Source of the DNA: Sunxiuqinia sp.
GTDB taxonomy: Bacteria; Bacteroidota; Bacteroidia; Bacteroidales; Prolixibacteraceae
Length of the DNA stretch: 35,832 nt
Assembly (NCBI GenBank): GCA_003246935.1
Contig: QKCF01000487.1
Span: 1 to 35,832, forward strand
Direction: 5' to 3'
This document shows positions 3,678 through 34,519 of this stretch, piece by piece. How positions within the stretch are numbered: position 1 is the stretch's first letter; each line of letters begins with the position of its first letter. Position numbers and translations under genes: made by a program. Under the pieces are notes generated by a model. That model worked only from the letters and a program-made list of their open reading frames with translations, made no database searches and was not told the DNA's origin.

Positions 3678-4553
3678 CTAAAAAACCAATTCCCTGTTAT
3701 ATTCCGGCATCGCACCATTTTGTGTACACACATAAGCAGATAGATTAACAGCCATTTGATGGGTCTCCGGCAATGGTTTCTCGGACAACAAACCAACGAC
3801 CATTGCAGCGGTGAACGAATCACCAGCCCCCACAGTATCTGCAACCTTAACCTTCGGCGTTTCAATGAAACTGCTTTCTGTGCCGGTTATGAGATAACTA
3901 CCTTCAGTTCCGCAGGTTAATGCAACCAATTTCAGATTGAATTGATTAAGTAGTGTCAAACAATTCTCCTTATCATTCCCATCGAGGCCAAATAAATCGG
4001 CTACAATCTTAATTTCATCATCATTTATCTTCAGAATATTACACTGGGTCAGCGATTGTTCAATCAAAACCTTCGAGTAGAACTGCTGTCGCAGGTTAAT
4101 ATCAAAGATCTTCAGAGCTGAGTCCGGGACAAGACGCACGAAGTCATGAATTGTTTGTCCCGACACTTTACTGCGCTGAGCCAATGAACCAAAACAAACA
4201 GCTTTAGTGCTTGTTGCAATCTTCTCATATTCTGCCTTCATACCAATGAAATCCCAGGCCACAGGTTCGCAAATTTCGTATTGCGGGATACCATCACCAC
4301 TTAGCGTTACTTGTACTGTGCCAGTAGGATAGTCCGCCTTCTGAATATCGTACTGTAATTCTACCACATCCAGTTTCCGGATGATCTCTTCACCCAGCTC
4401 ATCCTTTCCAATAGCACTGATGGCCAAACCGTCAAGTCCTAATTTAGACACGTGAAAAGCAAAATTACATGGGGCTCCCCCCATCTGTTTGTGATCCGGG
4501 AACACATCCCATAACAATTCTCCAATTCCTATTACTAATGATTTTTCTTCCAT
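3678..4553 (-). CDS. PfkB-family fructokinase, PUL 1
   Basis: A 291-residue cytoplasmic sugar kinase of the PfkB/ribokinase family that should convert fructose to fructose 6-phosphate with ATP. The sugar-site segment GGAPCN is at residues 25-30 and the family signature DTVGAGDSFTAA near the C-terminus carries the catalytic base Asp245. Length is normal for bacterial fructokinases. It begins 6 bp after the stop of the MFS porter gene, so the two are co-transcribed, giving fructose import plus trapping. A close paralogue with the same first motifs lies at 19126-20010. Fructose as the substrate is inferred from the GH32 context; related PfkB kinases act on other sugars. Confidence 0.9.
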   Translation of the reverse strand: MEEKSLVIGIGELLWDVFPDHKQMGGAPCNFAFHVSKLGLDGLAISAIGKDELGEEIIRKLDVVELQYDIQKADYPTGTVQVTLSGDGIPQYEICEPVAWDFIGMKAEYEKIATSTKAVCFGSLAQRSKVSGQTIHDFVRLVPDSALKIFDINLRQQFYSKVLIEQSLTQCNILKINDDEIKIVADLFGLDGNDKENCLTLLNQFNLKLVALTCGTEGSYLITGTESSFIETPKVKVADTVGAGDSFTAAMVVGLLSEKPLPETHQMAVNLSAYVCTQNGAMPEYNRELVF

Positions 4554-4559
4554 AGTTTT

Positions 4560-5918
4560 TTAGATAAGTCCTAATTCTTTTTCAATTTGTTCCAAGGATT
4601 TTCCTTTCGTTTCCGGGATCCATATTTTTACAAATACAAAGGCGATTATCGAGAAGATGCCGAAAATCCCAAACAGATAGCTCAATCCCAATCCCCCTTG
4701 GATGACCGGAGCAAAATAAACGGTCAGAAAGGTACACAGCCAGCTAACGGCTGTTGAGAACGACATAGCCACTCCTTTTATGCGGTTCGGATAAATCTCG
4801 GAAATAATCACCCACATTACCGGGGCAAACGAAGCAGCAAAGAAGGAAATGTACACTAACAAAGCAGTCAGCACGCCGGGGCCATACTGCACCGGTTTGG
4901 CAAACTCCCAAGTTAGGTAAGCCAGGGAAACAATCATACCGACAGCCCCCCAAAGTAGTAAGGTTTTGCGGCCTTTCTTATCAACCAGCCACAAGGCAAC
5001 AATGGTCATCAAAAAGTTAACCAGCCCTACGATCATTGACATCATCATGGAATCACCCTTTGCCGCACCGGCAGCTTTGAACATTTCCGGGGCAAACATG
5101 ATAACGGCGTTAATCCCGGTGATTTGCTGAAAAGCAGCTATCAATGTTCCGATTGCCACAACCTTTCCGGTTTTCCCCTTAAACAGTTCCGAAATGGACA
5201 GTTGCTTTTTCTTTCTTTCTTCGGCAATGGTTCTTTCGATCTCAGGAAGTTCATCTCTAACCAGTTGTTCACTTCCGATTTTACGCATAATCTGGGCCGC
5301 TTCATTTTTCTGCCCCTGAGCAACCAGCCAACGGGGACTTTCGGGAAATGAAATCACGATAAATACTAGATACAATAGCCCAAAAAGAGCAGGTACTACT
5401 AACATATACCGCCAGCTATCATCACCCAGCCCAATCAGCAGGTAATCGAAAATGTAGGCCAGCACAATACCGATGGTAATTGCAAACTGGTTCATCGACA
5501 CCAATCGCCCACGGTTGTGTGCGGGTGCAATCTCTGAAATATACATTGGGCAAACCACCGATGTCGCTCCTACCGCCAATCCAGAAAGTATGCGGAAAAT
5601 GATTAATATAGCTGATGACCCGGCCACCGCACAACCCAAAGCCGAGATAATGTAAAGAAAAGCAGTGGCCATCATTACTTTTTTTCGACCGTACTTCTTG
5701 GTGAAATTCCCAGTGAACAAGGCACCGATCAAACAGCCGATGGTCAGCAGGGCTGCCACCGTTCCCAGTCCGCTGTCGGTAAGCGAGAACTCACCCTTCA
5801 GCATATCCACAGCACCGGAGATTCCGGCCATATTTAATCCAAAAAGCAACCCGCCATTTATGGCAACAAAAGTGGTCCAGTACAAAAAGCCTGCATGGAC
5901 TTGATTCGTCTGATTCAT
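4560..5918 (-). CDS. MFS sugar porter (likely inner-membrane fructose importer), PUL 1
   Basis: A 452-residue, about 12-helix transporter of the major facilitator sugar-porter family. Family motifs are clear: GRKKVMMA in the loop after helix 2, PESPRWL before the large central loop (residues about 195-245), QQITGINAV in helix 7, DKKGRKTLLL in the helix 8-9 loop, and PETKGKSLEQIE at the C-terminus. Together with the fructokinase 6 bp downstream and the GH32 gene 10 bp upstream it forms the same trio as the known Bacteroides thetaiotaomicron fructan locus, where the MFS protein imports fructose. Its twin in PUL 2 has identical length and is almost identical in the helices, while the DNA differs at many third positions. 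Confidence 0.9.
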   Translation of the reverse strand: MNQTNQVHAGFLYWTTFVAINGGLLFGLNMAGISGAVDMLKGEFSLTDSGLGTVAALLTIGCLIGALFTGNFTKKYGRKKVMMATAFLYIISALGCAVAGSSAILIIFRILSGLAVGATSVVCPMYISEIAPAHNRGRLVSMNQFAITIGIVLAYIFDYLLIGLGDDSWRYMLVVPALFGLLYLVFIVISFPESPRWLVAQGQKNEAAQIMRKIGSEQLVRDELPEIERTIAEERKKKQLSISELFKGKTGKVVAIGTLIAAFQQITGINAVIMFAPEMFKAAGAAKGDSMMMSMIVGLVNFLMTIVALWLVDKKGRKTLLLWGAVGMIVSLAYLTWEFAKPVQYGPGVLTALLVYISFFAASFAPVMWVIISEIYPNRIKGVAMSFSTAVSWLCTFLTVYFAPVIQGGLGLSYLFGIFGIFSIIAFVFVKIWIPETKGKSLEQIEKELGLI

Positions 5919-19125: not shown

Positions 19126-20010
19126 TTAGCCTCCAAAAGAAAAATCACGTTGAGAATACTCCGGCATCGCTCCTTTTTGCGTACACACAAAAGCTGAGAG
19201 ATTGACTGCCATTTCATGTGTTTGTGTTAATGTTTTGCCTGTCAACATACCAACAACCATAGCAGCCGTAAACGAATCACCGGCGCCAACAGTATCGGCA
19301 ACTTTTACAGTGGGGGTTTCCATGAAACTAACGTCACCTTTAGTTATCAAATAACTACCTTCAATGCCACAAGTTAGCGCCACCATTTTCAGTTTAAACC
19401 GGTAAAGTAACTCTTCACAGTTTTCTTTATCATTGCCCTGCAACCCATACATTTGAGCAACAAGCTTAATCTCGTCATCATTTATCTTTAAGATGTTGCA
19501 TAATTTAAGCGACTCATCCAGCAAGGCCTTCGAGTAAAAATGCTGTCGCAGGTTAATGTCGAAAATTTTTAACGCGGCATCGGGAACCTGACTGACAAAA
19601 TTCCGAATGGTCGCTTTAGAGACTTCTCCCCTTTGCGCTAACGAGCCAAAGCAAACAGCATCTGTTACACCAGCAATCCCCTCATAATCCGGGTTCATTT
19701 CAATAAAATCCCAAGCTACTGGTTCACAAATTTCATATTGCGGAACTCCTTCGCCACTGAGGGTCACCTGCACAGTGCCGGTAGGATGATCAACCTTTTG
19801 AATATCATATCTCAGTTCGACCCCATCCAGTTTCTGAATGATTTCTTCGCCTAACGCATCCTTGCCAATTGCGCTTATAGCCAAACTGTCTAGTCCCAAA
19901 TTAGACACATGGTAAGCAAAATTACAGGGTGCTCCACCCATTTGTTTGTGATCCGGGAACACATCCCACAACAACTCTCCGATTCCGACTACTAATGGCT
20001 TTTTACTCAT
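19126..20010 (-). CDS. PfkB-family fructokinase, PUL 2
   Basis: The start is set at ATG 20008-20010 (MSKKPLVVGIGELLWDVFPD), which aligns with the PUL 1 kinase start and leaves 7 bp to the MFS stop; the longer frame from 20043 would overlap the porter gene. The 294-residue product has GGAPCN near residue 25 and DTVGAGDSFTAA with the catalytic Asp245. It is the clear twin of the PUL 1 fructokinase and the last gene of PUL 2. No convincing terminator follows, so transcripts may run on into the relic region. Fructose to fructose 6-phosphate is the inferred reaction. Confidence 0.9.
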   Translation of the reverse strand: MSKKPLVVGIGELLWDVFPDHKQMGGAPCNFAYHVSNLGLDSLAISAIGKDALGEEIIQKLDGVELRYDIQKVDHPTGTVQVTLSGEGVPQYEICEPVAWDFIEMNPDYEGIAGVTDAVCFGSLAQRGEVSKATIRNFVSQVPDAALKIFDINLRQHFYSKALLDESLKLCNILKINDDEIKLVAQMYGLQGNDKENCEELLYRFKLKMVALTCGIEGSYLITKGDVSFMETPTVKVADTVGAGDSFTAAMVVGMLTGKTLTQTHEMAVNLSAFVCTQKGAMPEYSQRDFSFGG

Positions 20011-20017
20011 AATCTGT

Positions 20018-21376
20018 TTAAATAAGTCCAAGTTCTTTTTCAATTTGTTCCAACGATTTTCCTTTGGTTTCGGGGATCCAGAATTTCACAAAAACAAACG
20101 CGATAACACTGAATATTCCGAAAATACCAAACAAGTAACTCAATCCCAATCCTCCCTGAATAACCGGGGCAAAATAGACAGTCAGGAAGGTACATAACCA
20201 GCTGACTGCTGTTGAGAATGACATCGCTACTCCCTTTATACGATTTGGATAGATTTCAGATATTATCACCCACATCACCGGTGCAAAGGAAGCCGCAAAA
20301 AAGGAAATGTAAACCAGCATAGCTGTCAACACCCCCGGGCCGTACTGCACCGGCTTAGCAAACTCCCAGGTCAGGTAAGCCAGCGAAATAATCATCCCCA
20401 CTGCTCCCCACAACAACAACGTTTTACGTCCCTTCTTATCAACCAACCACAGAGCAACAATCGTCATTAAAAAGTTAACCAACCCGACAATCATTGACAT
20501 CATCATTGAATCGCCTTTAGCAGAGCCGGCAGCTTTAAACATTTCCGGTGCGAACATGATTACCGCGTTGATCCCGGTAATTTGCTGCAAAGCAGCAATG
20601 GCTGTTCCGATCGCAACAATCTTACCAGTCTTGCCTTTAAACAGCTCAGACAACTTCAACTTCTCTTTTGACTTTTCTTCCGAAATCACTTTCTCCATTT
20701 GGGATAGCTCTGTACGAACCAATTCTTCACCACCAATTTTCAGCATCACAGCTTGAGCCTCAGCTTTTCTGTCTTTAGCAATGAGCCAGCGCGGACTCTC
20801 CGGAAACGAGACCATTATAAAGATCAGGTAAAACAAGCTGAATACTGCTGGCACAGCTAACATGTAACGCCAGCTATTATCACCTAATCCAATAAGCAGG
20901 TAGTCGAAAATGTAGGCAAGCACAATACCAATGGTAATAGCAAACTGGTTCATTGAAACCAGCCGACCGCGACTCTGTGCAGGCGAAATTTCAGAGATGT
21001 ACATTGGCCCAACTACCGAAGTGGCACCAACTGCCAAGCCCGAAAGAACACGGAAAATAATGAGTATGGCCGAAGACCCGGCAAAGGCACAACCTAAAGC
21101 TGAGATAATATAAAGCACCGCCGTAGCAAGCATCACTTTCTTCCGACCGTATTTTTCGGTGAAGTTGCCTGTAAAAAGGGCGCCAATTAAGCAACCGAAA
21201 GTTAATAGAGCCGCAACGGTTCCCAAGCCACTATCAGTTAGCGAAAATTCGCCTTTTAGCATATCAACAGCCCCGGAAATCCCAGCCATATTCAAGCCGA
21301 ATAACAATCCTCCGTTAATCGCCACAAACGTGATCCAATACAAAAAGCCGGCATGAACTTGATTAGTCTGTTTCAT
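20018..21376 (-). CDS. MFS sugar porter (likely fructose importer), PUL 2
   Basis: A 452-residue, 12-helix sugar porter, the same length as the PUL 1 porter and nearly identical in the membrane parts (shared QQITGINAVIMFAPEMFKAA, DKKGRKTLLLWGAVGMI and PETKGKSLEQIEKELGLI). Differences gather in the central cytoplasmic loop, residues about 195-245. The DNA differs at many silent positions, so the duplication is not recent and the protein sequence has been held by selection. It lies 82 bp behind the alpha-galactosidase gene and 7 bp before the fructokinase. It should carry fructose released in the periplasm across the inner membrane. Confidence 0.9.
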   Translation of the reverse strand: MKQTNQVHAGFLYWITFVAINGGLLFGLNMAGISGAVDMLKGEFSLTDSGLGTVAALLTFGCLIGALFTGNFTEKYGRKKVMLATAVLYIISALGCAFAGSSAILIIFRVLSGLAVGATSVVGPMYISEISPAQSRGRLVSMNQFAITIGIVLAYIFDYLLIGLGDNSWRYMLAVPAVFSLFYLIFIMVSFPESPRWLIAKDRKAEAQAVMLKIGGEELVRTELSQMEKVISEEKSKEKLKLSELFKGKTGKIVAIGTAIAALQQITGINAVIMFAPEMFKAAGSAKGDSMMMSMIVGLVNFLMTIVALWLVDKKGRKTLLLWGAVGMIISLAYLTWEFAKPVQYGPGVLTAMLVYISFFAASFAPVMWVIISEIYPNRIKGVAMSFSTAVSWLCTFLTVYFAPVIQGGLGLSYLFGIFGIFSVIAFVFVKFWIPETKGKSLEQIEKELGLI

Positions 21377-21458: not shown

Positions 21459-23657
21459 TTATTCATTCACCTCTGAAATTAAGAGTACTACACTGTTCCG
21501 TTGTACATTTATTTCCGGATTAATCCCAATCTCCATCAAAAAGTTACCGGAATAGATGGCTGTTTCATCTAAGGTTGATGAGGTTCCAGGGTACAGGTTG
21601 ATCTCTTTTACGCAATAATTTTTATTTACATCCAATCCTTTCAATCGAATAGGTCGCTTCGTCATTCTTTCCATCCAACGGTTAGAGTGGAGGTAATTAA
21701 ACATCACAGCATTTGACCGGTTATCATCCACATACATAATTGATGCGAATGGATTTTCATAAGGACTAGCCAGACGATACTGTTCACCATGAAGCACGAT
21801 ATCTTTAAATTCATTGTAATTTTCGATTGCTTGCTTGGCAAATTCCAAGTCGGTTTCACTTAAATGACTAACGTCTACATCAAAGCCTAGTTTTCCCATA
21901 CTGGCCACATCAGTTTTAAATTTCATAGGCTGTTTTCCCCAGTTTGTTACGTGACAATCAGTAGTAATTGAGGGGAAAAAGTAGGAGTAATTCCATTGAA
22001 GATAAATGCGTTCAATTGGATCTGTATCATCACTTGGCCAGAATTCAGTAAAGTACTTTAAGAAATTGTAGTCAGCTCGACCACCACCACCTGAGCACAA
22101 CATCATTGGCACTTTAGGGTATTTTTCCCGTATTCTTTCCAGCACGTCATAAAGTCCCCGGACATAGTCTACATATAGATGAGATTGAGGAATATTATTT
22201 TTCTGTAAGTAGGGAGAATAAGCATTATAAATCACAGCATTGCAATCCCATTTTACAAAACCAATTTCCGGATTCTCTGTGAATAAATTATCTACAATCC
22301 CAAATACAAAATTCTGCACTTCGGGGTTGGTCAAATCAAGAACCATCTGATTACGATATAATTTTATCGGACGTTCCGGTTGTTTAATAACCCAATCAGG
22401 ATGTTCTCGATATAACTCACTTTCAGGATTTACCATTTCCGGCTCTATCCATATACCAAACTTGACATTATTTTTTTTAGACTCTTGTACGAGGTAGCCC
22501 AGCCCATGTGGTAATTTCTTAGCGTTAACCTCCCAATCGCCTAATCCTGCATCATCATTATTTCGTGGATACTTATTACCAAACCAACCATCGTCCAGTA
22601 AAAACAAATCCAAGCCCAATTCCTTGGTGTCCTTAAATAATTTGGAAAGCTTTTGCTCATTAAAATCGAAGAAAGTTGCCTCCCAATTATTGAGTAATGC
22701 TAACCGGTCTCCTTCACCATCCAGAACCCTGAATTTTCGTGCCCAACTCTGTATTTGTCTTGATGCACCACCCGCTCCATTTGATGAAACTGAATAGATT
22801 AATGAAGGTGTTTTAAAGCTTTCGCCGGCTTTTAGTGTATATGCCGATTCATAAGGATTGATACCAGCGATCAATTTCAAATTTTGATGGGAATCTATTT
22901 CAAATTCAATTTTATAGTTACCACTCCATGCTAGTTGACCAAGAAGTGTTAATCCGTTATCCTCTTCAGCCGGTTTACCGAAAGAAATCATGAAGTTAGG
23001 AGTCCCCATTAACATGGCTCTTGTACCCAACTTCGTTTCAATAACTTTTGTCCCTTGGCTCAGTTTCTCCTCTACAGGTTGCATTTCTTTCAAGTATTCC
23101 CCTTGGAAATGAGTCAAATAAAAATCGGTATTTGAAAAATAAAGATTGGCAGATGCGTATTTAGTAAGCTCGATCTCTCCTTTTTCATTATTGGTTATTT
23201 CAGTCCATTGCTCCAAAACATTCAAGCTTTCCCACGCCTTAATGTTTAAAACCACTGAGATATCATATACAGGATCGACTAACGAGATTTTGGTAAGCGT
23301 CCAATTTGTATTCTTTTCAACTTCAGTATCTACAAAATGTAGTTCTGTTGACAAATTTCCGTCAGAATGTTTTATCTGAAGTGCTGGTTCAGTCAAATTC
23401 CATGTTCCGGATGGAGTATATGCTGAATTAGAGATTCCTGCATTTGAACTTGGAAAGTAATATTGATTTTCAATTTTCCGATATTCATCTTTTGAAGTTA
23501 GTTTATTTCCGAAATAGACATTCCATAATCGATTCTGGCTATCTGTTTGGAAAACCATCGCAAAATCCTTGGTTTCAATCGGAATTATAGATTGCGCATT
23601 AAGACCTATAACACATAAGGTTAAAATGACTGACGCTATTAGTTTTGAAAGTTTCAT
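21459..23657 (-). CDS. GH36 alpha-galactosidase, secreted
   Basis: A 732-residue GH36-family enzyme with an ordinary signal peptide ending near LNAQS (no lipobox), so probably periplasmic. After an N-terminal beta-rich domain (about 25-300) the catalytic barrel shows LLDDGWFG (about 354-360), GIWIEPEMVNPES (about 401-413), FVKWDCN with nucleophile Asp471, CSGGGGRADY, and WPSDDTDP with the likely acid/base Asp543. It hydrolyses alpha-1,6-galactosides such as raffinose, stachyose and melibiose. Its place between GH32 and the fructose porter is telling: galactose removal from raffinose-type sugars yields sucrose, which the GH32 next door can split. PUL 1 has no counterpart. Confidence 0.92.
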   Translation of the reverse strand: MKLSKLIASVILTLCVIGLNAQSIIPIETKDFAMVFQTDSQNRLWNVYFGNKLTSKDEYRKIENQYYFPSSNAGISNSAYTPSGTWNLTEPALQIKHSDGNLSTELHFVDTEVEKNTNWTLTKISLVDPVYDISVVLNIKAWESLNVLEQWTEITNNEKGEIELTKYASANLYFSNTDFYLTHFQGEYLKEMQPVEEKLSQGTKVIETKLGTRAMLMGTPNFMISFGKPAEEDNGLTLLGQLAWSGNYKIEFEIDSHQNLKLIAGINPYESAYTLKAGESFKTPSLIYSVSSNGAGGASRQIQSWARKFRVLDGEGDRLALLNNWEATFFDFNEQKLSKLFKDTKELGLDLFLLDDGWFGNKYPRNNDDAGLGDWEVNAKKLPHGLGYLVQESKKNNVKFGIWIEPEMVNPESELYREHPDWVIKQPERPIKLYRNQMVLDLTNPEVQNFVFGIVDNLFTENPEIGFVKWDCNAVIYNAYSPYLQKNNIPQSHLYVDYVRGLYDVLERIREKYPKVPMMLCSGGGGRADYNFLKYFTEFWPSDDTDPIERIYLQWNYSYFFPSITTDCHVTNWGKQPMKFKTDVASMGKLGFDVDVSHLSETDLEFAKQAIENYNEFKDIVLHGEQYRLASPYENPFASIMYVDDNRSNAVMFNYLHSNRWMERMTKRPIRLKGLDVNKNYCVKEINLYPGTSSTLDETAIYSGNFLMEIGINPEINVQRNSVVLLISEVNE

Positions 23658-23710: not shown

Positions 23711-25306
23711 TCATTTAGAATACAATTGCCAAATGGAAATTACGTCAACGAATTCAGCCTTTGCTATGGTAACGGGCCGTCCGTCCGCAAAAACCTTGAG
23801 TTTGTTGAATGGTTGTGTGTTGAAAAATGTTTCGGTCATCACCAATGCTCCACCGTCAATAAAAATTTCGACAGAAGCAGCATCCACAAATAGCTCCAGC
23901 TTTAAAGTTGAACCAACATCATAAGGAGCAGTTGCAATTCCTGAAAACTTGTCAGAGAAACTCATATCACCCGACTTGGTTCGGTCAAACTGAAATTGCT
24001 TATCGACATCCGAATAAGTGAATTGAATTTGCTCGCCCAACTCGTTTTGGAGAGTAAGGCCCAAAGAATCCGGAAGCTTCTCGCCCAACTCAAACTCAAA
24101 TGTCAAGCGACTTTGATTCAGATTAATTCCGTGCAAATCCAGTTCCTTCTCGCCTACAACTTCTATAGCCTCTTTCTTAACCGTCATTGCGCGATTTGTA
24201 ATTAGATCCAATTCTTTAACCGGAGACGATTTTAGCAAGTATAGGTCATCCTTTTTCTCCAACGACAGTAACCGGGGCAAAGTCATAGCACCACGCCACC
24301 TTTCGGTTGGAACAACATTTGCATATTCCCAATTTGTCATCCATCCAAGGAAAATACGACGTCCGTCTTCTTTCGGCACATCCGACCAGGTAACGCCTGC
24401 ATAATTATCACGTCCATAATCAACCCAACTGGTATCCTTTGATGCAGCTATAAATTCATGTCCGTCAAAATCACCTACAAAATATTGTGTGGCGGATCCC
24501 CCGTTTGGCCCCCCCGGATTGATATTTACAATCAGTACCCACTTGGTGTCATCGGTTCCATCAACTTTCAACGGGAAAAGATCTGGACATTCCCATACAC
24601 CCTCATGAGTTCCGGCATCAAATCCAAACTCACTCTCAAACTGCCATTCTTTCAAATCAGGTGATGAATAAATTTTCACCCGGTCATGTGCTGAAAGTAC
24701 TAAATTCCATTTTTGTATTTCATCATTCCAAATCACATTCGGATCACGAAAATCCTTGATTCCCGGGTTATTTAATACCGGGTTAGCCTCGTACTTAGTC
24801 CAGCTTCGTCCCTTGTCTAAGCTATAAGCTATTCCCTGTGATTCAACATCAATAGCCCCTGTTTTTTCAATTTCTATGTTATGATATGTATATATTGCAA
24901 TTAAAGGGGGATTTTCTTCAATACCAAAACCACTGGTATTTTTCCAGTCAACCACGGCACTCCCCGAAAAGATATAGCCGAGACTATCCGGATATAAAGC
25001 GATCGGCATGTGCTCCCAATGCACCAAATCGGTACTAATGGCATGTCCCCAATACATCGGGCCCCAAACGGTACTATCGGGATAATATTGATAAAAAAGA
25101 TGATATTCGCCAGCATAATAAACCATCCCGTTCGGATCGTTCATCCAAGCTGAATCCGGTGAAAAATGGTATTGCGGGCGATATTTTTCTGTATATGGTT
25201 TTGTTAGCTCATCTCCAGCCTCTTTTGTATTTTTGGGCCCTGTCGAACAAGCCCCGGCAAACAACAAAAGTGCTACAAGAAGATGGTATAAATATTTTTG
25301 TTTCAT
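23711..25306 (-). CDS. GH32 fructosidase lipoprotein, PUL 2
   Basis: A 531-residue GH32 lipoprotein (lipobox AGAC, Cys20) with all catalytic motifs: WMNDPNG (nucleophile Asp57), FRDP (Asp188) and WECPDLF (acid/base Glu239). It is a close paralogue of the PUL 1 enzyme at 5929-7512 and differs mainly in the C-terminal beta-sandwich. It follows the inactive GH32 homologue by 44 bp and precedes the alpha-galactosidase by about 50 bp. Expected to release fructose from sucrose-type ends of imported oligosaccharides; the exact linkage preference cannot be read. Confidence 0.92.
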   Translation of the reverse strand: MKQKYLYHLLVALLLFAGACSTGPKNTKEAGDELTKPYTEKYRPQYHFSPDSAWMNDPNGMVYYAGEYHLFYQYYPDSTVWGPMYWGHAISTDLVHWEHMPIALYPDSLGYIFSGSAVVDWKNTSGFGIEENPPLIAIYTYHNIEIEKTGAIDVESQGIAYSLDKGRSWTKYEANPVLNNPGIKDFRDPNVIWNDEIQKWNLVLSAHDRVKIYSSPDLKEWQFESEFGFDAGTHEGVWECPDLFPLKVDGTDDTKWVLIVNINPGGPNGGSATQYFVGDFDGHEFIAASKDTSWVDYGRDNYAGVTWSDVPKEDGRRIFLGWMTNWEYANVVPTERWRGAMTLPRLLSLEKKDDLYLLKSSPVKELDLITNRAMTVKKEAIEVVGEKELDLHGINLNQSRLTFEFELGEKLPDSLGLTLQNELGEQIQFTYSDVDKQFQFDRTKSGDMSFSDKFSGIATAPYDVGSTLKLELFVDAASVEIFIDGGALVMTETFFNTQPFNKLKVFADGRPVTIAKAEFVDVISIWQLYSK

Positions 25307-25350: not shown

Positions 25351-26823
25351 TTAATATTCAGTTAGTGCTCCTTTAAGTAAGCTCACCTTCCCCTTCTCGC
25401 CAAATATCTGCACTTGAACCGATTCTCCTTCAAAAGCAATCTTTCGCGACAGAGAGATCAAACCGTTCATCGCAAATAATTCGGCCGAGTTCTTGTCTAT
25501 AATTAACGTCATATCCATTAGAGGCTCATTGGTAACATATGGCGCATAATTAAAGCCATCCCAGGTATCGGGGAATTCAGTTTGTATCGTTGGATCGGCA
25601 ATGAAAAAATATCTGCGCTCGACCTGGTAACCTAACATCAGTTCCTTACCTTCATTGTTTCGTATTTTCACCCCAAAAGTCTCCGCCATACCCAAATACA
25701 GGCGATTATTGACGTCAAAGGTCAAATCAATTCTCAACGGGAGTCTCTGTTTTTTCTCAATTTTCACCCCATCTGTCAGCTCGGCTTCCTTTATTAAATC
25801 TCTTTCGTGTTCAATTGATTCAATAGTTTTTACCGACTGAGCAGCCAAATAGTAATCGTTAAATTTTTCTTTAAAAGTCAGCTCTCTGACTAATGAAAAC
25901 ACGCCCGATTCTTTAGGTTCAATATTAAACTTGGTATAGATTGAATTATAAATACTGCCAATTAATACCGGCGCTTTGTTGCTACCCAGATAATCAGACA
26001 GGACTACGGCTTGATAAAGATCACTCCCATGATCAACCCATTTGGGCTTGTTGTGTGATGAGCGGTAAACATATCCGTCAAAATCGCCCACAAAGTATTG
26101 AACTCCACTTCCTTCATTCGGAGAACCACTGTCGGCGCTAATGAACAGCACCCATTTCATTTCGTTTGTTCCCGCAACCTCCATCGGGAAAAAATCCAAC
26201 TTTGTCCATTCTCCCGACTTCAAGTAAACGTCATCGCCAAAACGACTTACATATTCCCAGTTTATCAAATTGGCGGACGAATAGAAACGCACTTCGTAAC
26301 CAGAAAGCACCAACATTGTCCATTTTTGTGCATCATCGTTCCATATCACTTTCAGATCTTGAATCGGTTGATAGTAGTCTTCCAGAATGATCGGTTCATC
26401 AGAATATTGTTTCCAACCAGCACCGTTATCTTCACTGTATGCAAGTGTCAACTCTCCAAATTGATCATCAGAAATACCTAACGCGATTAATGCGGGGTTA
26501 TCCGCCCCGAACTCAGTCGTATGATTCCAGTCTATAACAACACTCTTTAAATTCTGAGTTGAGATTTGTCCTGTTTCAAAACTCATCGGTTTATTCTGCC
26601 AATGAACCAGATCCTGACTTTCCGCCTGTTCCGTTTCATCATCCTTTGTATAACTGTAAAACAGATGATAATTGTCTTCATGGAAAATTAGGGCTATCGG
26701 ATTTTGAACAAGAGAATCGTTCAAACTGAAGTGCAACGGAACAGCTGATTCCTGTTTTTTAGTTGTTGTGCATCCCAAAAGGATTCCCACGATCAGAAGT
26801 AAAAATGTGACCTGACTTTTCAT
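25351..26823 (-). CDS. Catalytically dead GH32 homologue (putative glycan-binding lipoprotein)
   Basis: The start is set at ATG 26821-26823, where a clean lipoprotein signal begins (LLGC, Cys18); the longer frame would add 20 basic residues over a hairpin. The 490-residue product aligns with GH32 along its whole length (NYHLFY, VQYFVGDFDGYVY, a C-terminal ELFAMNGLISLS), but the active site is gone: the WMNDPNG motif is LVQNPIA, with Asn41 for the nucleophile; FRDP is IQDL, with only the Asp kept (Asp156); WECPDLF is WTKLDFF, with Thr207 for the acid/base Glu. The frame is intact with no stops, so it is a maintained pseudoenzyme rather than a pseudogene. It sits right after susD, where a surface glycan-binding protein is expected and PUL 2 has no other. 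Binding function is inferred. Confidence 0.85.
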   Translation of the reverse strand: MKSQVTFLLLIVGILLGCTTTKKQESAVPLHFSLNDSLVQNPIALIFHEDNYHLFYSYTKDDETEQAESQDLVHWQNKPMSFETGQISTQNLKSVVIDWNHTTEFGADNPALIALGISDDQFGELTLAYSEDNGAGWKQYSDEPIILEDYYQPIQDLKVIWNDDAQKWTMLVLSGYEVRFYSSANLINWEYVSRFGDDVYLKSGEWTKLDFFPMEVAGTNEMKWVLFISADSGSPNEGSGVQYFVGDFDGYVYRSSHNKPKWVDHGSDLYQAVVLSDYLGSNKAPVLIGSIYNSIYTKFNIEPKESGVFSLVRELTFKEKFNDYYLAAQSVKTIESIEHERDLIKEAELTDGVKIEKKQRLPLRIDLTFDVNNRLYLGMAETFGVKIRNNEGKELMLGYQVERRYFFIADPTIQTEFPDTWDGFNYAPYVTNEPLMDMTLIIDKNSAELFAMNGLISLSRKIAFEGESVQVQIFGEKGKVSLLKGALTEY

Positions 26824-26920: not shown

Positions 26921-28656
26921 TTAATAATTAATATTTTGCGTATAAAGACCTTTGGTGAAGTCAATTTCACGCTGTGGAATCGGGTAATATTCATCCCTTT
27001 TTGCAGTAAACTGGGCATTATTCAAAAAGTCGTGTCGAGTCTTTTCTTTATCTAGATAAGCGTTCAAGGTTGGCTCTGCAATTCCCCAACGCACCAGGTC
27101 GAAGAAACGCGGGCTTTCAAGGGCAAACTCCAAACGACGTTCCCAACGCAATGCCATTCTTGCATTTTCCTGTGTCCATGGAAGATTTACACCATCATAT
27201 TCCGCAATCAAGTAGTTTGATGGAGCAGTCCCATCGGCAAAACGAGTTCTGCCAGTACTTTCGGAAGCACGCTTGCGAACTTGACTTGGTTGATCAATGG
27301 TCGAGCCATATCCTGTTGTCCCAATTCAATGTATGCTTCAGCCTGCATCAACAATACATCAGCATAACGAATGATATCGATGTTTTTGGAAACGCCCATG
27401 AAAGGACCTTGCTTTTTATAGCATGAACAATCAGCAGCCTGCTGTTCTTTCATACTTTGGAAATATCCGTAAACGCCCGGGTCGCGCACCCAGCTATTAC
27501 TGAAAATGTAAGCATCTTCGTTTCGGTATTTGTACGGGTGACCATCAATACCAACCGAGTGGTCTACACGCGGGTCAACCGTAACACCTGTTGGTGTAAT
27601 ATCTGCCGCACTCAAGGCAACATCGTTAAACGTATCAAACTTAGGCAAACCATTAGCATCGGTTGCAAACGCATTCACCAGATTCTGGCTGGGCTGGTGG
27701 AAACCACAGCAGCCGTATTGCGGAGCTCCGTGCGGATAGTTCAAACCATTCTCGAAGTTCAGACGACCAGCTGTGGTACCATCACTAATTGAAAACTGTA
27801 TAGCAAATATTGATTCCGGGCCATTAAAGAAATTCTCAGCGAAGTCTGGTTGCAGATTGTACTCGCCCGAAGAGATGACCATCTGACACAAATCAATAAC
27901 TTCCTGCAAACGGCTTTGATTGATGTTGGTAACCTGGTTTTCTTCATCCTGTTCGTATGCTTGATACAATCTCAGTTTTGCCAAATAGGCTGCGGCTGCA
28001 TATTTATTAGCTCGTCCAACTTCCGTTTGATCCGCCGGCAGATTATCAACTCCATACTGGAAATCTTCAGCAATCGTATTCCACAGTTCATCGTTCGAAT
28101 ATTCGCGGTTTGTTGTCTGAAGAATCTGTTCATTCGTCAGCGTTTCATCGATATACGGAATATATTTGAACAATACTTTCAGCATAAAGTGGCAATGCCC
28201 CCTTAAAAACCGAGCTTCTGCGATCCGGGTTGTTCTAAGATCAAACTCCTCATCAGTTAACTGGTTCAACATGCGCAATGCCGAGTTGGCACGTGAAATG
28301 GCGCTGTAATAGTTTTCCCATGTGTACGGAAGACCTGCATCCCAGCTTTGTGTTGGTTGTGTAATGTTATATTGTTCATAGTTATTAAATATATCCATAT
28401 CACCAACGCCTCCGCCACCTTTATAGGCATCATCAGAACGAACACTACCGTAAACCCACATACTTACAGTTGGTCCAACCATATCGTCATTTCCAACTCC
28501 TGCATAAGCAGCAGTTACCAAACCTTCGGCGCTTTCAACCGACGGGTCTCCTGCTTGTATGAATCCCTGCGGTTCAACCTCCAGATAATCCTTACATGAT
28601 ACAGCCAAAAGACTAATCAGTGCGATTACATATATCTTGATGTTTTTTATATTCAT
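26921..28656 (-). pseudogene. susD: SusD/RagB-family lipoprotein, frameshifted, PUL 2
   Basis: The first frame (28656 down to 27208) gives 482 residues with lipobox AVSC and KDYLEVEPQGF, and is normal SusD up to MARPLINQV. It then runs out of frame for about 20 residues. The true continuation, VRKRASESTGRTRFADG and on through RMALRWERRLEF... to YTQNINY, is in another frame and stays open to 26921. At the switch the minus strand reads CAAGTCAAGT; removing one CAAGT restores a 576-residue SusD that matches the PUL 1 copy (LINQVRNRA). The lost part includes the conserved C-terminal family region. Either the gene is dead, or the repeat is a switchable slippage site, or it is an assembly error. 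It lies 22 bp behind susC. Confidence 0.9.
27279..27288. repeat. 5-bp tandem duplication causing the susD frameshift
   Basis: ACTTG occurs twice in a row on the plus strand. One copy fewer puts the two halves of susD in frame: the span 26921-28656 is 1736 bp, and 1731 is divisible by three. A pure tandem copy of this kind is the product expected of strand slippage. Confidence 0.9.
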
Positions 28657-28677: not shown

Positions 28678-31600
28678 TTAGAATGAAACATTTACACCAA
28701 CTGAGAAAGTCCTTGGAATCGGAATTGCATTCGCTGACTCATCCTCATCAAGAGGATTGGTTCTCTCCGGATCAGGTCCTATAAATTCTTTACTTTTCAG
28801 CCAGAATAAATTTTCGGCCATAACATATACTCTTAGCTTTTCCAGGCCGATTTGTTCCAATGTTGCAGAAGGTAAATTATAACCTAACTGAACATTTCTC
28901 AGTTTAAAATAGGATGTATTCACATAGTAATAATCCGATTTTCTAGACTCGTTATTATTATCTGATAAACTTAAGGCCGGAATTTTCGTACTTGGATTTG
29001 CTTTCGTCCAGGCCGAGAACACACCGGGGCCTACGTTTTCCCGTCCTCCTTGCATGGAGTAATTATTATAAATGTATCGGTCTTGACCTGATCTACCTGC
29101 CACACCGGATCCGAAGACCGACATGTCAAAATTCTTGTAATTTAAATCGACATGTAAACTATATTCCAGTTTTGGCAATAAAGTACCCAGGAATTTTTGA
29201 TCGAGGGCGTCAATAACTTCATCACCATTTAGGTCTTTATAACGGATACGACCAGGAGCCGCACCAACCTGGGATGCATGGTTAGCCACCTCAGTCTCGT
29301 TTTGGAAAATACCATCAGTAACATATCCAAATATTGAAAGCTGTGAGTGTCCCACAATTGTTTGCTCTACGTTACCAGGATAAGCCGTTCTTACTTCCTC
29401 AGGTAGTTCGGTAATTTTATCTGCAAAATGGCTGGCGCTGGCACCAATTTCATAGTTAAAATCACTGTTCACTTCTTTGCGATAATTCAAAGCAAATTCC
29501 CAACCGTTGTTTTTCTTGGTTGCTCCGTTCAGAAACTGTTTTTGTCCCTCGCCCAAAGCAGAAGCTACTGGTGGCGAAATAAGGATATCGGTTGTTTTCC
29601 GGGTATACCAGTCGAACGAACCGGTCAATTTACTATCAAAGAACCCAAAATCGAGACCTGCGTTAAATTCATCAGTTGTTTCCCATCTTAAATTCGGGTT
29701 AGCTCCCTGAACTGCAACAAAACCAGATGGCAGATTACCGGAATCCTGACCTCCTAACGCATAAGCAGAGCCAACATTCCAAAACTGATCAAAGAAATCG
29801 TTGTGATTGATTGATGCTACCTGATCGGCAGTTGCCCCGTAGCGTGGTTCAAACAAGCCTAAACTCGCAAACTCACCCACATCTTGGTTACCAACACGAC
29901 CGGCACCAAGACGAAGTTTCAAGTTCGACAACTTTTCCATTCCATCCATGAATGCTTCTTCGCTGATTCGCCAACCAAAAGTGGCTGCCGGGAACAAACC
30001 ATAACGATTGTCTTTACCGAAGCGTGAAGAACCGTCACGACGTAACGTGAACGAAGCTAAAAACCGTTCGTCGTAGTTGTAATCAACTTTACCGAATTGA
30101 GAAAATAAACGGCTATCGCGAGCAGTTCCAAAACTATTACCATTTGTAGTACCGGCACTCAGTACAAAAAAGTCTTCCGTTTGCGTTGAAAAACCTTCCT
30201 TGTACCCTGTAAAATCGCTGTATTTATCAGAGACCGCTTCAATACCAGCCAGAAATCCGAATTTACTTTTTCCTAACTCCAAACTGTAAGTTGCAGTATT
30301 CGACCAGGTAATACTGGTAAAATTCGTATTGAACATTGTTAAATTATTTACGGAACGACTGATAAAACCGTTCGTAAAACTCGGTTCAATATCCTTGTCT
30401 TTAACCATCGAGTAATCAACGCCCACGTTCGTGCGCAAGATCAGGTTTTTTACGGGTTCTGCCTGGGCATAAGCACTGGCAAACAAATAAGAGCGCTTCG
30501 TGTTATCCCACCGGTTCAGATATTGCATATAAACCGGGTTATTTCGGTCAGAATATCCGGCACCAACCGGACCTCCCCAACCTCCGTCCGGTGTGTGAAC
30601 CGGAATCGTAGGAGCTAAAGTAATCGCAGTATAGGGAATTGCCACACCCCCAAGGTCTTCAGCCTCAAGTGTTTCATTTGAAGAAACGACCTGAGCATTA
30701 ATCCCGAATTTCACTTTATCATCCAGCAAACTGGTTTGACCATTAATACGGGCCGTGATACGATCGTAATTGGTATATTTTAACATACCAGTATTCTTAA
30801 TATACCCTACGTTCATCAATACAGAAGACTGCTTTGTACCACCGGAAACTGTCAGGTCGTTACTGATAACATATCCGGTTTCGTAGGTAGCATCCTGCCA
30901 GTCGGTGTCACCTACAGGCATAGACATATCTCCGCCAACATAAGGTCGTGCCGTAACGCTATTCAATACAGGATTATTAAAATCACCATTCCAGTCAAAA
31001 TCATAGATTTCGCCATAACCGCCGGCCGGATCTACACCATCATTGACTGAAGCTTGCCACAGTGCGCGACCACGATCAACAGCATTAACCATTTTATAGC
31101 GTTGAGACTTTTCACTTTGAACCGAGAAGTTTGAGTTGAACTCAACCTTCACTTTTCCGTTTTTATCGGATCCGTTTTTGGTGGTTACAATAACAACACC
31201 ATTCGATGCGCGGGATCCGTAGATAGAAGAAGCAGATGCATCTTTCAATACCTGAACCGACACAATAGAACCGGCACTTAACCCTTGGAAGACTTCAGGG
31301 CGTTTTGTAGGTACGCCATCAATAATATACAGTGGATTATTGTCGCCAAGTGTGTTGACACCACGGATCAGGATACGGCTGTTTGCTGCATTCGGAGTAC
31401 CCGATTTCTCAATAAAAAGACCAGGAACGCGTCCTTGCATCGCTTGCATCGGGTTACCCGAACTTAAGCTCACATTCTCGATCGATTTTAATTCAATCAC
31501 TTCAATCGCACCTGTTAAATCTGCTTTACGTTGTACTTGGTAACCAACTGCTACAACCTCTTCCAGACCGATCGTTTCTTCTTTTAAAACGGCATTAACT

Positions 31601-32184
31601 ACTGCTGAACCAGCAACTGCAATTTCCTGCGACTGCATACCAACAAATGAAAACACCAATATGTCAGTACCACTGACTTTTCCCAAGGTATAATTCCCGT
31701 CAAAGTCAGTAATAGTTCCATTGGTTGTTCCCTTCACCACAACCGTAACACCCGGCAGCGGAGCGCCAGTTTCGTCAGTAACATTACCCGACACCTTATC
31801 CTGCTGTTGCATCTGCACCTGGTCGTCCTTATCAGCAGCTGTTACTGCAATATACCGATCAATAATCTTATAAGTGTAGCCAGTGTCCCTAAAAAGATCT
31901 TCCAGCACCTGATCGATATTTTGATTAGTATAATCCACACTAACTACTTTATCCAAGATATTTTGATCTGATTTCAATACAAAATGATAGCCTGATACTG
32001 TTTCAATTTGCTCGATTACATCTTTTAATGTAGAATTCATATTTAAAGAAATCTTTCCGGTTTGCCCGAAAGAAGCTGCATAGAGATGCATGCTCATAAT
32101 GAAAACGAAGAAGGAAGTAAGCTTCATAATTCGCAAAATTTGGTTAAGTCCCGCTACACGCGGAACAAATTCTGTTTTTTTCAT
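28678..32184 (-). CDS. susC: SusC-type TonB-dependent receptor with STN domain, PUL 2
   Basis: An 1168-residue outer-membrane importer, intact. The hydrophobic signal starts at an internal Met (MKLTSFFVF, residue 20). Domains: STN at about 45-116, carboxypeptidase-regulatory-like at about 130-205 (GAPLPGVTVVVKGTTNG), plug at about 220-345 (MQGRVPGLFIEKSGTP, PLYIIDGVPTK, ASSIYGSRASNGVVIVTTK), then the barrel ending in FSVGVNVSF. The STN domain ties it to the FecR encoded upstream. It is similar in plan to the PUL 1 SusC but much diverged in plug and barrel, so it probably takes a different oligosaccharide. Its partner susD is frameshifted, which leaves the channel possibly without a lid. Confidence 0.96.
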   Translation of the reverse strand: MKKTEFVPRVAGLNQILRIMKLTSFFVFIMSMHLYAASFGQTGKISLNMNSTLKDVIEQIETVSGYHFVLKSDQNILDKVVSVDYTNQNIDQVLEDLFRDTGYTYKIIDRYIAVTAADKDDQVQMQQQDKVSGNVTDETGAPLPGVTVVVKGTTNGTITDFDGNYTLGKVSGTDILVFSFVGMQSQEIAVAGSAVVNAVLKEETIGLEEVVAVGYQVQRKADLTGAIEVIELKSIENVSLSSGNPMQAMQGRVPGLFIEKSGTPNAANSRILIRGVNTLGDNNPLYIIDGVPTKRPEVFQGLSAGSIVSVQVLKDASASSIYGSRASNGVVIVTTKNGSDKNGKVKVEFNSNFSVQSEKSQRYKMVNAVDRGRALWQASVNDGVDPAGGYGEIYDFDWNGDFNNPVLNSVTARPYVGGDMSMPVGDTDWQDATYETGYVISNDLTVSGGTKQSSVLMNVGYIKNTGMLKYTNYDRITARINGQTSLLDDKVKFGINAQVVSSNETLEAEDLGGVAIPYTAITLAPTIPVHTPDGGWGGPVGAGYSDRNNPVYMQYLNRWDNTKRSYLFASAYAQAEPVKNLILRTNVGVDYSMVKDKDIEPSFTNGFISRSVNNLTMFNTNFTSITWSNTATYSLELGKSKFGFLAGIEAVSDKYSDFTGYKEGFSTQTEDFFVLSAGTTNGNSFGTARDSRLFSQFGKVDYNYDERFLASFTLRRDGSSRFGKDNRYGLFPAATFGWRISEEAFMDGMEKLSNLKLRLGAGRVGNQDVGEFASLGLFEPRYGATADQVASINHNDFFDQFWNVGSAYALGGQDSGNLPSGFVAVQGANPNLRWETTDEFNAGLDFGFFDSKLTGSFDWYTRKTTDILISPPVASALGEGQKQFLNGATKKNNGWEFALNYRKEVNSDFNYEIGASASHFADKITELPEEVRTAYPGNVEQTIVGHSQLSIFGYVTDGIFQNETEVANHASQVGAAPGRIRYKDLNGDEVIDALDQKFLGTLLPKLEYSLHVDLNYKNFDMSVFGSGVAGRSGQDRYIYNNYSMQGGRENVGPGVFSAWTKANPSTKIPALSLSDNNNESRKSDYYYVNTSYFKLRNVQLGYNLPSATLEQIGLEKLRVYVMAENLFWLKSKEFIGPDPERTNPLDEDESANAIPIPRTFSVGVNVSF

Positions 32185-32402: not shown

Positions 32403-33371
32403 TTATTCCCAATAAATTAATGTAGTTTTCCCCGGTCGGGGCACTATCCGGTAATCAAGAGAAGAAGTCATTTTAAAGACTTCCAGGATCTGATCAATTG
32501 GCTTGTTTTTCATGATTGTACCGAAATACAATTCATCGGCCAGTTTTGGATCTTCAATCTGAATTTCAACATTGTACCAACGTTCCATTTTTTTAGCAAT
32601 GTCGCTCAGTTTTTCATTTCGGAAGGTAATCAGGCCTTTTTGCCAGGAGGTATATATATCGGTGTTAACATTCTTAACTGTTAACTCTTTGGATGTTCCG
32701 TTATAGTTAATATTCTCGCCGGGAACCAGGCGGGTGTATTCCTTACCTGATTTGCTTAAAACACCAAGGCTTCCTTCAATAAGTGTTGTATTGACTTCAT
32801 TTTCACCATCATACGCCTGTATATTGAATGAGGTTCCATATACTTTAAAATCGAGCGATTTCGTTTTTACAACGAAGGGGTGCTCCGGATCTTTTGCGAC
32901 ATTAAAGAACGCCTCACCCTCCATTTCCACGACGCGTTCACCTTCTTTAAAATTTCCGGCATAAGCAAAATGAGATCCGGAATTCAGCTGAACCGTTGTT
33001 CCATCCGGCAAAGTGAGGTTCGACATCTGTCCCAGCGGAACATCAACAGCCATATTAGAAGCATAAACCATTTCTGATCCCCTTCCCGACTTTAGCTGTT
33101 TTTGGACAACCATTCCCAATGCAAAAAACAGAACTATAATTGCGGCGTAGCTTGTGTAAGTATATAGTCGACGAAGATTGTCCGTCCTGCGAATCCGGCG
33201 AGCGATCTCCTCTTTCCAAACCCGCTTCGAATCTTCGGCCGATGTTGCCGTAAGAGCATATACTTTTTTGAGGCTGATAAACTCAGCTTTGTGGTCAGAC
33301 GAGGAGATCTCTTTTACTTCCGCTTCGGAAGCATTGCCTGCCAGGTATTTTATGATTTGCTGATGATCCAT
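32403..33371 (-). CDS. FecR-family anti-sigma factor, PUL 2
   Basis: A 322-residue inner-membrane regulator. The N-terminal part MDHQQIIKYLAGNASEAEV is the sigma-holding end, one membrane segment lies at about 72-90, the FecR domain follows (LPDGTVVQL-like LPDGTTVQLNSGSHFAYAGN, EGEAFFNVAKDPEHPF, VYGTSFNIQAY), and a C-terminal DUF4974-like part has MERWYNVEIQ...YFGTI. It would pass the SusC STN signal to the PUL 2 sigma factor, 78 bp upstream. Two decayed copies of its first codons lie at 18294-18320 and 18596-18658. Its lineage differs from the PUL 1 FecR. Confidence 0.93.
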   Translation of the reverse strand: MDHQQIIKYLAGNASEAEVKEISSSDHKAEFISLKKVYALTATSAEDSKRVWKEEIARRIRRTDNLRRLYTYTSYAAIIVLFFALGMVVQKQLKSGRGSEMVYASNMAVDVPLGQMSNLTLPDGTTVQLNSGSHFAYAGNFKEGERVVEMEGEAFFNVAKDPEHPFVVKTKSLDFKVYGTSFNIQAYDGENEVNTTLIEGSLGVLSKSGKEYTRLVPGENINYNGTSKELTVKNVNTDIYTSWQKGLITFRNEKLSDIAKKMERWYNVEIQIEDPKLADELYFGTIMKNKPIDQILEVFKMTSSLDYRIVPRPGKTTLIYWE

Positions 33372-33449: not shown

Positions 33450-34061
33450 TTACGACATGTAATGCATGATTATTTCAACCAATACAGCAGGCAGGTATTC
33501 AGCCAGTTTTACGCTGAGAGTTTTCAAGGCTCTCGTAATATTTGCTTCCACCGACTTGACCGAAATCTCGAGTTCATCGGCTATTTCCTTGTTCTTTTTC
33601 CCTTCAAAACGGCTCAGCATAAACACCTGTCGACATTTCTCCGGCAATTCACTGATCGATTGGAAAATTAAAGCCTCCATCTCAGAGAACTCAAGCGCAT
33701 CGAAATCGAATGAATCCAGAACTTCGCTGTTAATCTTCGTCTCCATGTCCTGCAAGTGCCTGTCCTCGTATTTACTAACAACCTTCTTGTGTCGTATAAA
33801 ATTCAAACAGCTCGATTTGGCAAACGTGTACAAAAACGACTTGACACCATTGGAAGACTGAATCTTGGAGCGGTTCATCCAAAGGTTGATAAAAGCTTCC
33901 TGTGCCAGGCTGGCCGCTTTGTCGTGATCGGAAAGAAACTGATTACAAAAGCCAACTACCGGATTATAGTGAGCTTTGAATAGCTGTTCAAAGGCGGATT
34001 CGTTTCCAGCCTTGAACTGGCGAAACAAAAAATCGTTTAGGTCTGAGGGTTCAACTAACAT
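33450..34061 (-). CDS. ECF sigma factor, PUL 2
   Basis: A 203-residue ECF sigma factor. Region 2 at about 15-90 (SAFEQLFKAHYNPVVGFCNQ, AQEAFINLWMNR), region 4 at about 135-190 (LPEKCRQVFMLSRFEGKKN, IADELEISVKSVEANITRAL). It heads PUL 2 and should switch on the susC operon once its FecR is relieved. The C-terminus LAEYLPAVLVEIIMHYMS is the part also found decayed at 18753-18881. Upstream lie a terminator and a GH65 fragment, so this gene starts its own transcript; no promoter was recognised. Confidence 0.93.
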   Translation of the reverse strand: MLVEPSDLNDFLFRQFKAGNESAFEQLFKAHYNPVVGFCNQFLSDHDKAASLAQEAFINLWMNRSKIQSSNGVKSFLYTFAKSSCLNFIRHKKVVSKYEDRHLQDMETKINSEVLDSFDFDALEFSEMEALIFQSISELPEKCRQVFMLSRFEGKKNKEIADELEISVKSVEANITRALKTLSVKLAEYLPAVLVEIIMHYMS

Positions 34062-34231: not shown

Positions 34232-34519
34232 TTAACGAGTTACTTTGAATACCTCTTTTTCCGGTCCACCACCTGTTATCGTTAAACTTTTCCATTTCGA
34301 AGGCAGACAGGGATTTTTCTGAATCAATCCGTCATCAGTTAAGTGAAGACCCGCAAAGCCGAATAACACCGTCTGAAGCATACCCCCGGCACCAGTCGTA
34401 AAGTATGGATTGTTGCTGGTTGCCGATTCTGCCAATGCTCCAAACGGAGGACGCTTGTTTGGCATATAGGAACGTTTAAACATCTCGTTAGCTTTTTCAG
34501 CATATGCTTTGCTATTATT
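34232..34519 (-). pseudogene. C-terminal fragment of a GH65-family sugar phosphorylase/hydrolase
   Basis: Only the last 95 or so codons survive: NSKAYAEKANEMFKRSYMPN, then PPFGALAESATSNNPYFTTGAGGMLQ is read in short overlapping pieces, with LFGFAGLHLTDDGL and LPSKWKSLTI, which are the C-terminal hallmarks of GH65 (maltose, trehalose, kojibiose-type phosphorylases). Full members exceed 650 residues, so the catalytic domain is missing. Just upstream the frame meets a stop at about 34521, a few bases from the end of the next gene, marking a sharp junction. The fragment shares the strand of PUL 2 and may be the former neighbour of its regulators, cut off when the cassette region arrived. Confidence 0.8.

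Follow-up and report, generated by a model that had tools for sequence, protein, structure and literature searches.

The question raised by this locus is what is done, directly after a susD gene, by a protein that keeps the fold of glycoside hydrolase family 32 (GH32) and has lost its catalytic residues. The window, i.e., the whole stretch of DNA analysed, comprises 35,832 nt from Sunxiuqinia sp. The gene and the parts of it that matter here are:

25351..26823, minus strand: catalytically dead GH32-fold, lipoprotein-like protein P0001, 490 aa
26701..26703, minus strand: codon of Asn41, which replaces the nucleophile Asp (sequence comparison)
26356..26358, minus strand: codon of Asp156, the retained Asp of the RDP motif, whose Arg is Gln155 (sequence comparison)
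26203..26205, minus strand: codon of Thr207, which replaces the acid/base Glu (sequence comparison)
26374..26748, minus strand: propeller blades I-II, residues 26-150 (approximate borders), relaxed; this part once held the nucleophile and much of the pocket
25849..26373, minus strand: blades III-V, residues 151-325 (approximate borders), the better conserved half of the propeller
25363..25776, minus strand: beta-sandwich, residues 350-487 (approximate borders), where constraint equals that of the active enzyme

The frame is uninterrupted from the ATG at 26823 to the stop at 25351 and translates into 490 aa, whereas the plus strand across 25351-26823 is full of stops. An earlier note on this DNA had described a clean reading frame encoding a full-length GH32 with a lipoprotein signal, and this description holds: both Pfam GH32 domains are matched (N-terminal 6.6e-35, C-terminal 8.5e-10), and a lipobox-like LLGC ends at Cys18. 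In an NCBIfam scan, P0001 and its active neighbour P0002 alike gave only weak matches under the curated cut-offs. By fold and sequence family, P0001 is a GH32, with N- and C-terminal profiles and a model consisting of a five-bladed propeller and beta-sandwich. However, where an active GH32 has a nucleophile Asp, an RDP Asp and an acid/base Glu, P0001 has N41, D156 and T207. Alignment with P0002 confirms both replacements that had been proposed, D57 to N41 for the nucleophile and E239 to T207 for the acid/base. The surrounding motifs had been said to have changed as well; this is correct for the Arg of FRDP (R187 to Q155), but the Asp of that motif survives (D188 as D156).

The gene lies in PUL 2 of the window, in the order ECF, FecR, SusC, SusD, dead GH32, active GH32, alpha-galactosidase-type protein, MFS transporter and fructokinase:

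33450..34061, minus strand: ECF sigma factor (label from sequence)
32403..33371, minus strand: FecR-type anti-sigma factor (Pfam scan)
28678..32184, minus strand: susC of PUL 2 (label from sequence)
26921..28656, minus strand: susD of PUL 2 (label from sequence), frame shifted at 27279-27288
23711..25306, minus strand: active-type GH32 P0002, with WMNDPNG, FRDP and WECPD intact (Pfam, motifs)
21459..23657, minus strand: alpha-galactosidase-type protein, which we take to be a GH36
20018..21376, minus strand: MFS-type protein, presumably a sugar transporter
19126..20043, minus strand: PfkB-type fructokinase (by way of a 76% paralogue at 3678-4553 that scores for PF00294)

P0002 starts 44 bp downstream of the dead gene and, to judge from its intact catalytic motifs, is probably the active enzyme it had been taken for. 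To judge by the genes present, the substrate of PUL 2 may be sucrose, raffinose-type or fructo-oligosaccharides. No other ORF of at least 150 aa that could be a surface glycan-binding protein (SGBP) was found in PUL 2, in agreement with the earlier claim that the locus has no other such protein. The fructokinase/MFS pair is duplicated between PUL 1 (3678-5918) and PUL 2 (19126-21376), at 76% and 88% identity. A short frame at 34232-34483 resembles, by eye, what is left of the C-terminus of a larger glycoside hydrolase or phosphorylase.

The frameshift in the window's susD falls in a 5-bp tandem repeat (27279-27288), and the remainder is readable in a different frame as far as 26921. Of the 21 loci compared, only the window has it; susD is full length in the other 20/20, and thus the frameshift may reflect either an error of assembly or a true mutation at this locus.

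Relatives were sampled as stretches on a 20-kb scale at 40 places, together with locus L015 and the window, which gave 88 GH32 frames of three types nearest to the window's genes. A tree was built from 76 of these; the other 12, two of them fragments, lie outside 400-640 aa and were omitted. Residues were counted in 21 dead-clade and 52 active-type rows, without three odd GH32s (L076-L078). Eighteen of the 21 dead rows were labelled through their best match to the window gene. The other three (L071, L072, L079) are slightly nearer to the PUL 1 GH32 and were added once their slot and residues were seen. In the tree all 21 group together as one clade (group support 100, fork 99), separate from the active enzymes next to them. 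A recent tandem duplication of the active neighbour followed by decay was considered and is rejected, as the tree does not place the dead clade as the sister group of the active neighbours.

Both the nucleophile and the acid/base are absent in 21/21 dead-clade rows, whereas D/R/D/E is kept in 52/52 active-type rows. Eight different residues occur in the nucleophile column (N 11, I 3, A 2, and K, Y, S, E and M once each) and four in the acid/base column (T 17, D 2, A 1, N 1), and the RDP motif keeps its Asp in 16 rows and its Arg in one. A search for homologues next to susCD with the same Asn/Thr replacements had been proposed; dead homologues were found, but the replacements are only partly the same, with Asn in 11/21 and Thr in 17/21. 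The fructosyl pocket residues that are invariant in active rows (Trp, Asn, Gln, the WG loop, FSGS, the RDP Arg and Cys-Pro) are mostly replaced. Other residues, atypical of active rows, are conserved in the clade: F180, S229, G240, P362, L377 and A380 in 21/21, and R404 in 95%. In the beta-sandwich such clade-specific residues lie around N372-A380 and at R404, and further conserved residues fall within 229-283.

Five long GH32-like frames of 726-848 aa (L074:6386, L083:8680, L087:6117, L090:2598 and L091:7053), all among the 12 left out by length, carry Glu in the nucleophile column.

Selection was assessed by Nei-Gojobori counts in nine loci of one genus group (9 of the 21), giving 36 pairs. 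The dead gene has a median dN/dS of 0.132 and the active neighbour one of 0.070, and all 36 dead-gene values lie between 0.10 and 0.21. Random decay, which the earlier note had named as grounds for giving up a functional reading, was looked for: the 21/21 dead-clade frames are open, each of at least 469 aa, and the median dN/dS is 0.13. By these codon comparisons the dead GH32 is a retained pseudoenzyme under purifying selection, and not a gene in decay.

The constraint is unevenly distributed. With domain borders that are approximate, the median dN/dS of blades I-II is 0.229 in the dead gene vs 0.024 in the active one (ratio 9.6), that of blades III-V 0.083 vs 0.042 (ratio 1.95), and that of the beta-sandwich 0.130 vs 0.123 (ratio 1.05). 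The per-site shift in identity between blades I-II and the sandwich, in 14 dead and 14 active neighbours, has a Mann-Whitney p of 4e-18, for sites that are not fully independent. Thus constraint in the dead clade sits on blades III-V and the beta-sandwich and has broken down in blades I-II. Folding may account for part of the conservation of the beta-sandwich.

The position of the gene follows the type of transporter. That it adjoins susD had been claimed for the window and is confirmed there. With a PUL-2-type SusD defined as one of at least 72% identity to the window's SusD, the dead GH32 is the next same-strand gene after susD, i.e., in the SusE position, in 21/21 loci of this type and in 0/20 loci with the other fructan SusD type. 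In those 20 loci the slot after susD is filled by SGBP1, a protein named by its position (12 loci), by an unlabelled protein of 400-490 aa (5 loci) or by an active-type GH32 (3 loci). A Pfam scan of SGBP1 gave no match. Four of the five unlabelled proteins carry DUF4960, and the fifth, in L074, lies 683 bp away and is a beta-helix protein.

Since these loci had been chosen by their GH32, the test was repeated from the transporter side. SusD was searched for in the 140 family genomes (E up to 1e-150), and the best nine candidates were scored per genome. This gave 21 places at 73% or more, the window included, and otherwise, among the scored candidates, only 48-52%. The dead GH32 is next in 20/20 places that can be assessed; in the 21st (G022) the contig ends inside susD. 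In one locus a transposase-like frame, recognised by eye, lies between susD and an intact dead GH32 (L067:8635-9057). In three loci from other families of the order (L092, L093 and L094) an active-type GH32 comes next after susD, without an SGBP1, and it is plausible that this arrangement was the starting point for the dead form.

The earlier note had proposed a structure prediction with an overlay on GH32 enzymes, and the resulting model of P0001, built from seven proteins, has the GH32 fold. It superimposes on the levanase 9h8i with Z 31.2 (3.2 A over 399), the highest value, and on the GH32 subunit of the levan utilisome, 8a9y, with Z 22.4 (4.3 A over 392). Mean pLDDT is 70.8 and is low in blade I. 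However, blade I comes out no better in the active neighbour when that is modelled with these seven proteins, and thus the low confidence there says nothing about loss of the fold.

The lipobox pattern is found in 20/21 dead GH32s (it missed L015). In this phylum an acidic tail after the lipobox Cys is a signal for export to the cell surface. The seven residues after the Cys hold on average 1.45 acidic and 1.85 basic residues in the dead GH32s. The values are 2.65 and 0.35 in PUL-2-type SusD (lipobox in 20/21), 2.89 and 0.33 in SGBP1 (lipobox in 9/13), and 0.94 and 1.27 in active-type GH32s (lipobox in 33/44). The tail of the dead GH32 is nearer to that of the active enzymes than to that of SusD or SGBP1, which argues against a confident assignment to the surface.

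Several known systems bear on the interpretation. By analogy, the closest parallel that has been tested comes from a high-mannose PUL: BT1284, a GH18-like protein in which both catalytic acids are replaced, has homologues in at least 20 species and neither hydrolysed nor measurably bound its glycan (PMC11180146). Both proteins combine a full-length hydrolase fold in a susCD PUL with replaced catalytic acids and substrate-site residues, with an active relative beside them and with occurrence in many Bacteroidales species. They differ in that BT1284 has a GH18 TIM barrel and another substrate and was tested at the bench, whereas the dead GH32 is known from sequence and model.

The B. thetaiotaomicron levan utilisome offers a layout: its GH32 endo-levanase is mounted on the SusC lip beside an SGBP and has a second sugar site running across the propeller top towards the beta-sandwich (PMC7618045). 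Like the dead GH32 it is a GH32-fold lipoprotein of a fructan PUL, the two superimposing with the Z of 22.4 given above. However, the levanase is active and has a separate SGBP, whereas the dead GH32 itself fills the SGBP slot. The SGBP1 and DUF4960 proteins of the sister fructan PULs share this slot but have no GH32 domain, and the SGBP1 tails are acidic, unlike that of the dead GH32. Plant defective invertases, such as tobacco Nin88, are likewise GH32s that lack the expected activity and have been kept in evolution. However, their triad is reported never to be affected (PMC3713406). A plant-type defective invertase keeps the triad and has lost the sucrose-binding residues, and the dead clade, having lost nucleophile and acid/base, falls outside that type. 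Among the titles and abstracts brought up by searches of the open PMC literature, none on a dead bacterial GH32 in the SusE slot was found, which is weak evidence of absence, subscription papers being outside that scope.

The reading preferred here, to which a probability of roughly one half is given, is that the dead GH32 serves a single SusCD lineage as an accessory subunit without catalysis and works from the face formed by blades III-V and the beta-sandwich. The data show directly that the catalytic residues are lost, that the proteins form one clade, that within the genomes examined they are strictly linked to one susD type, that selection is purifying and that constraint has shifted. A GH32-fold lipoprotein, probably of the outer membrane, would have lost catalysis once on the tree and become dedicated to one SusCD lineage with a sucrose-type or fructan oligosaccharide as its likely substrate. 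It would dock beside SusC/SusD, where the SGBP or the GH32 levanase sits in the levan utilisome, and may serve as a scaffold that, by way of blades III-V and the beta-sandwich, brings transporter, active GH32 and passing oligosaccharide into position. Weak sugar contacts on this face are possible, and the old fructosyl pocket would not be used. By analogy with the utilisome, a GH32 freed from the need for an active site could keep its docking and second-site surfaces, and such surfaces fit the shift of constraint. It is this shift, together with the utilisome layout, the BT1284 parallel and the difference from plant invertases, that leads us to place the accessory subunit first, before a lectin that uses the old pocket and then a partner of the active GH32. 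Against it stands the tail after the Cys, which is unlike those of SusD and SGBP1.

The lectin, which is unlikely on the present evidence, would be a surface protein that binds raffinose-type sugars or fructan by their fructosyl ends in the old, remodelled pocket and feeds SusD. A fructosyl-binding lectin or a sensor was also what the earlier note had proposed. What stands of that proposal is a protein dead by its residues, full length and under purifying selection, which lies in the SusE/SGBP slot as the sole SGBP candidate of its PUL. The slot is that of SGBP-type proteins, and a DUF4960 protein, of the type found there in 4/20 sister loci, is reported to bind levan (PMC10076258). Inactivated GH32s crystallise with substrate bound, according to the titles of PDB entries. 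Moreover, in 14 close orthologues the former pocket has replacements in common (Thr207 in 14, Ser294 in 13, Ile295 and Tyr296 in 14), which makes a remodelled binding site conceivable. The proposal as it was put finds less support in the pocket itself. A lectin for fructosyl groups should have retained the -1 subsite, but the greater part of the invariant residues there has been replaced, the pocket Trp, Asn, Gln, FSGS and WG loop being mostly gone, and the replacements vary, with eight different residues in the nucleophile column of 21 rows; the lectin reading is weakened accordingly. Pocket codons of the dead gene show no excess constraint, with a dN/dS of 0.16 (43 codons) close to the 0.13 of the rest of the gene, vs 0.014 in the active gene (49 codons). 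The constraint lies elsewhere, and the lipoprotein tail is not SusD- or SGBP1-like.

Unlikely too, and placed after the lectin, is a lipoprotein pseudoenzyme that belongs to the active GH32 and not to the transporter, perhaps in the periplasm, where it would bind or tune the neighbouring enzyme; a role of this kind has been proposed for the defective invertases of plants. The basic tail, similar in dead and active GH32s, and the active-type GH32 that is the next gene in 18/21 loci make such a partner possible, and the operon linkage also fits it. Tobacco Nin88 is reported to be an indirect activator of cell-wall invertases; however, plant defective invertases are reported to keep the triad (PMC3713406) and the dead GH32 does not. 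The dead GH32 furthermore tracks one susD type and is found in 0/20 loci after the other, although active GH32s occur in loci of both types. In two loci the gene after it encodes another kind of protein, DUF2961 in L069 and an alpha-galactosidase-type protein in L070.

A ligand sensor acting on an ECF/FecR switch through SusC is very improbable. Genes of ECF and FecR type do lie before susC in the window, L015, L055, L066, L069 and L071, but in L056-L065, L067, L068 and L070 genes of MFS and PfkB type are found there instead, and thus the dead GH32 persists without that switch alongside. Residual or altered catalysis with other residues is hardly credible: the RDP Asp is kept in 16/21 rows, but none of the 21 has the nucleophile or the acid/base, and the residues that stand in their places are chemically mixed (N, I, A, K, Y, S, E, M at the first; T, D, A, N at the second). 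Least credible is a decaying pseudogene, for which a dN/dS about 1.9 times that of the active neighbour and the frameshifted susD of the window could be cited, against 21/21 open frames of at least 469 aa, a dN/dS of 0.13 with all 36 pairs at 0.10-0.21, and a full-length susD in 20/20 other loci.

PULs are often read by their enzymes, and a clade that matches Pfam GH32 without the catalytic residues would be miscounted as a fructanase. The two SusD lineages also amount to a natural experiment, with a dead GH32 in the slot of one susCD lineage and mostly an SGBP-type protein in that of its sister. This makes testable the role of SusE-position proteins, and whether dead glycosidases such as BT1284 are parts of transporters. 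More tentatively, glycosidases beside susCD may be converted into non-catalytic structural parts of the transporter, with selection lifted from the catalytic half of the GH32 propeller and the opposite face and beta-sandwich kept for docking. If true, then together with the GH18-like proteins, dead glycosidases as transporter parts would be a recurring class distinct from glycan-binding proteins.

The taxonomic spread was followed in samples of the genus (4 genomes), family (140), order (393), class (395) and phylum (395) and in named genome contigs. The order, class and phylum samples were searched at a cut-off of 1e-60, and those of class and phylum overlap. Dead-type orthologues are found in the window's own family and in L015 (Carboxylicivirga linearis, one locus from the scan of named contigs); among the hits read, no dead-type hit occurs outside these. 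In the order sample 13 genomes besides the window's have a match, and 12/13 loci are active-type, L046 being partly readable. In the class and phylum samples D/D/E is kept by the matched protein in 38 of the 40 loci retrieved besides the window's, among more matches listed; L126 and L127 repeat the genes of L043 and L045, and the two exceptions are L135 and L143, described below. Given active-type residues in nearly all outside loci, the dead form is likely restricted to one family, although weaker relatives under 1e-60 would escape.

Other altered GH32s were seen. Those of L076:9564, L077:9259 and L078:9530 are of another kind, in which the nucleophile Asp and acid/base Glu are kept, the RDP Asp is Tyr, and WMNDPNG and FSGS are changed. 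They lie in PULs of the other fructan type that also hold an SGBP1 and two active-type GH32s. The protein matched in L143 (L143:1450) has motifs similar to these, with Phe for the RDP Asp, i.e., D/F/E. A GH32 from another family of the class (L135:1426) has WMNNPNG, i.e., a nucleophile Asn, with FSGS, FRDP and WECPD intact, and possibly represents an early step of inactivation.
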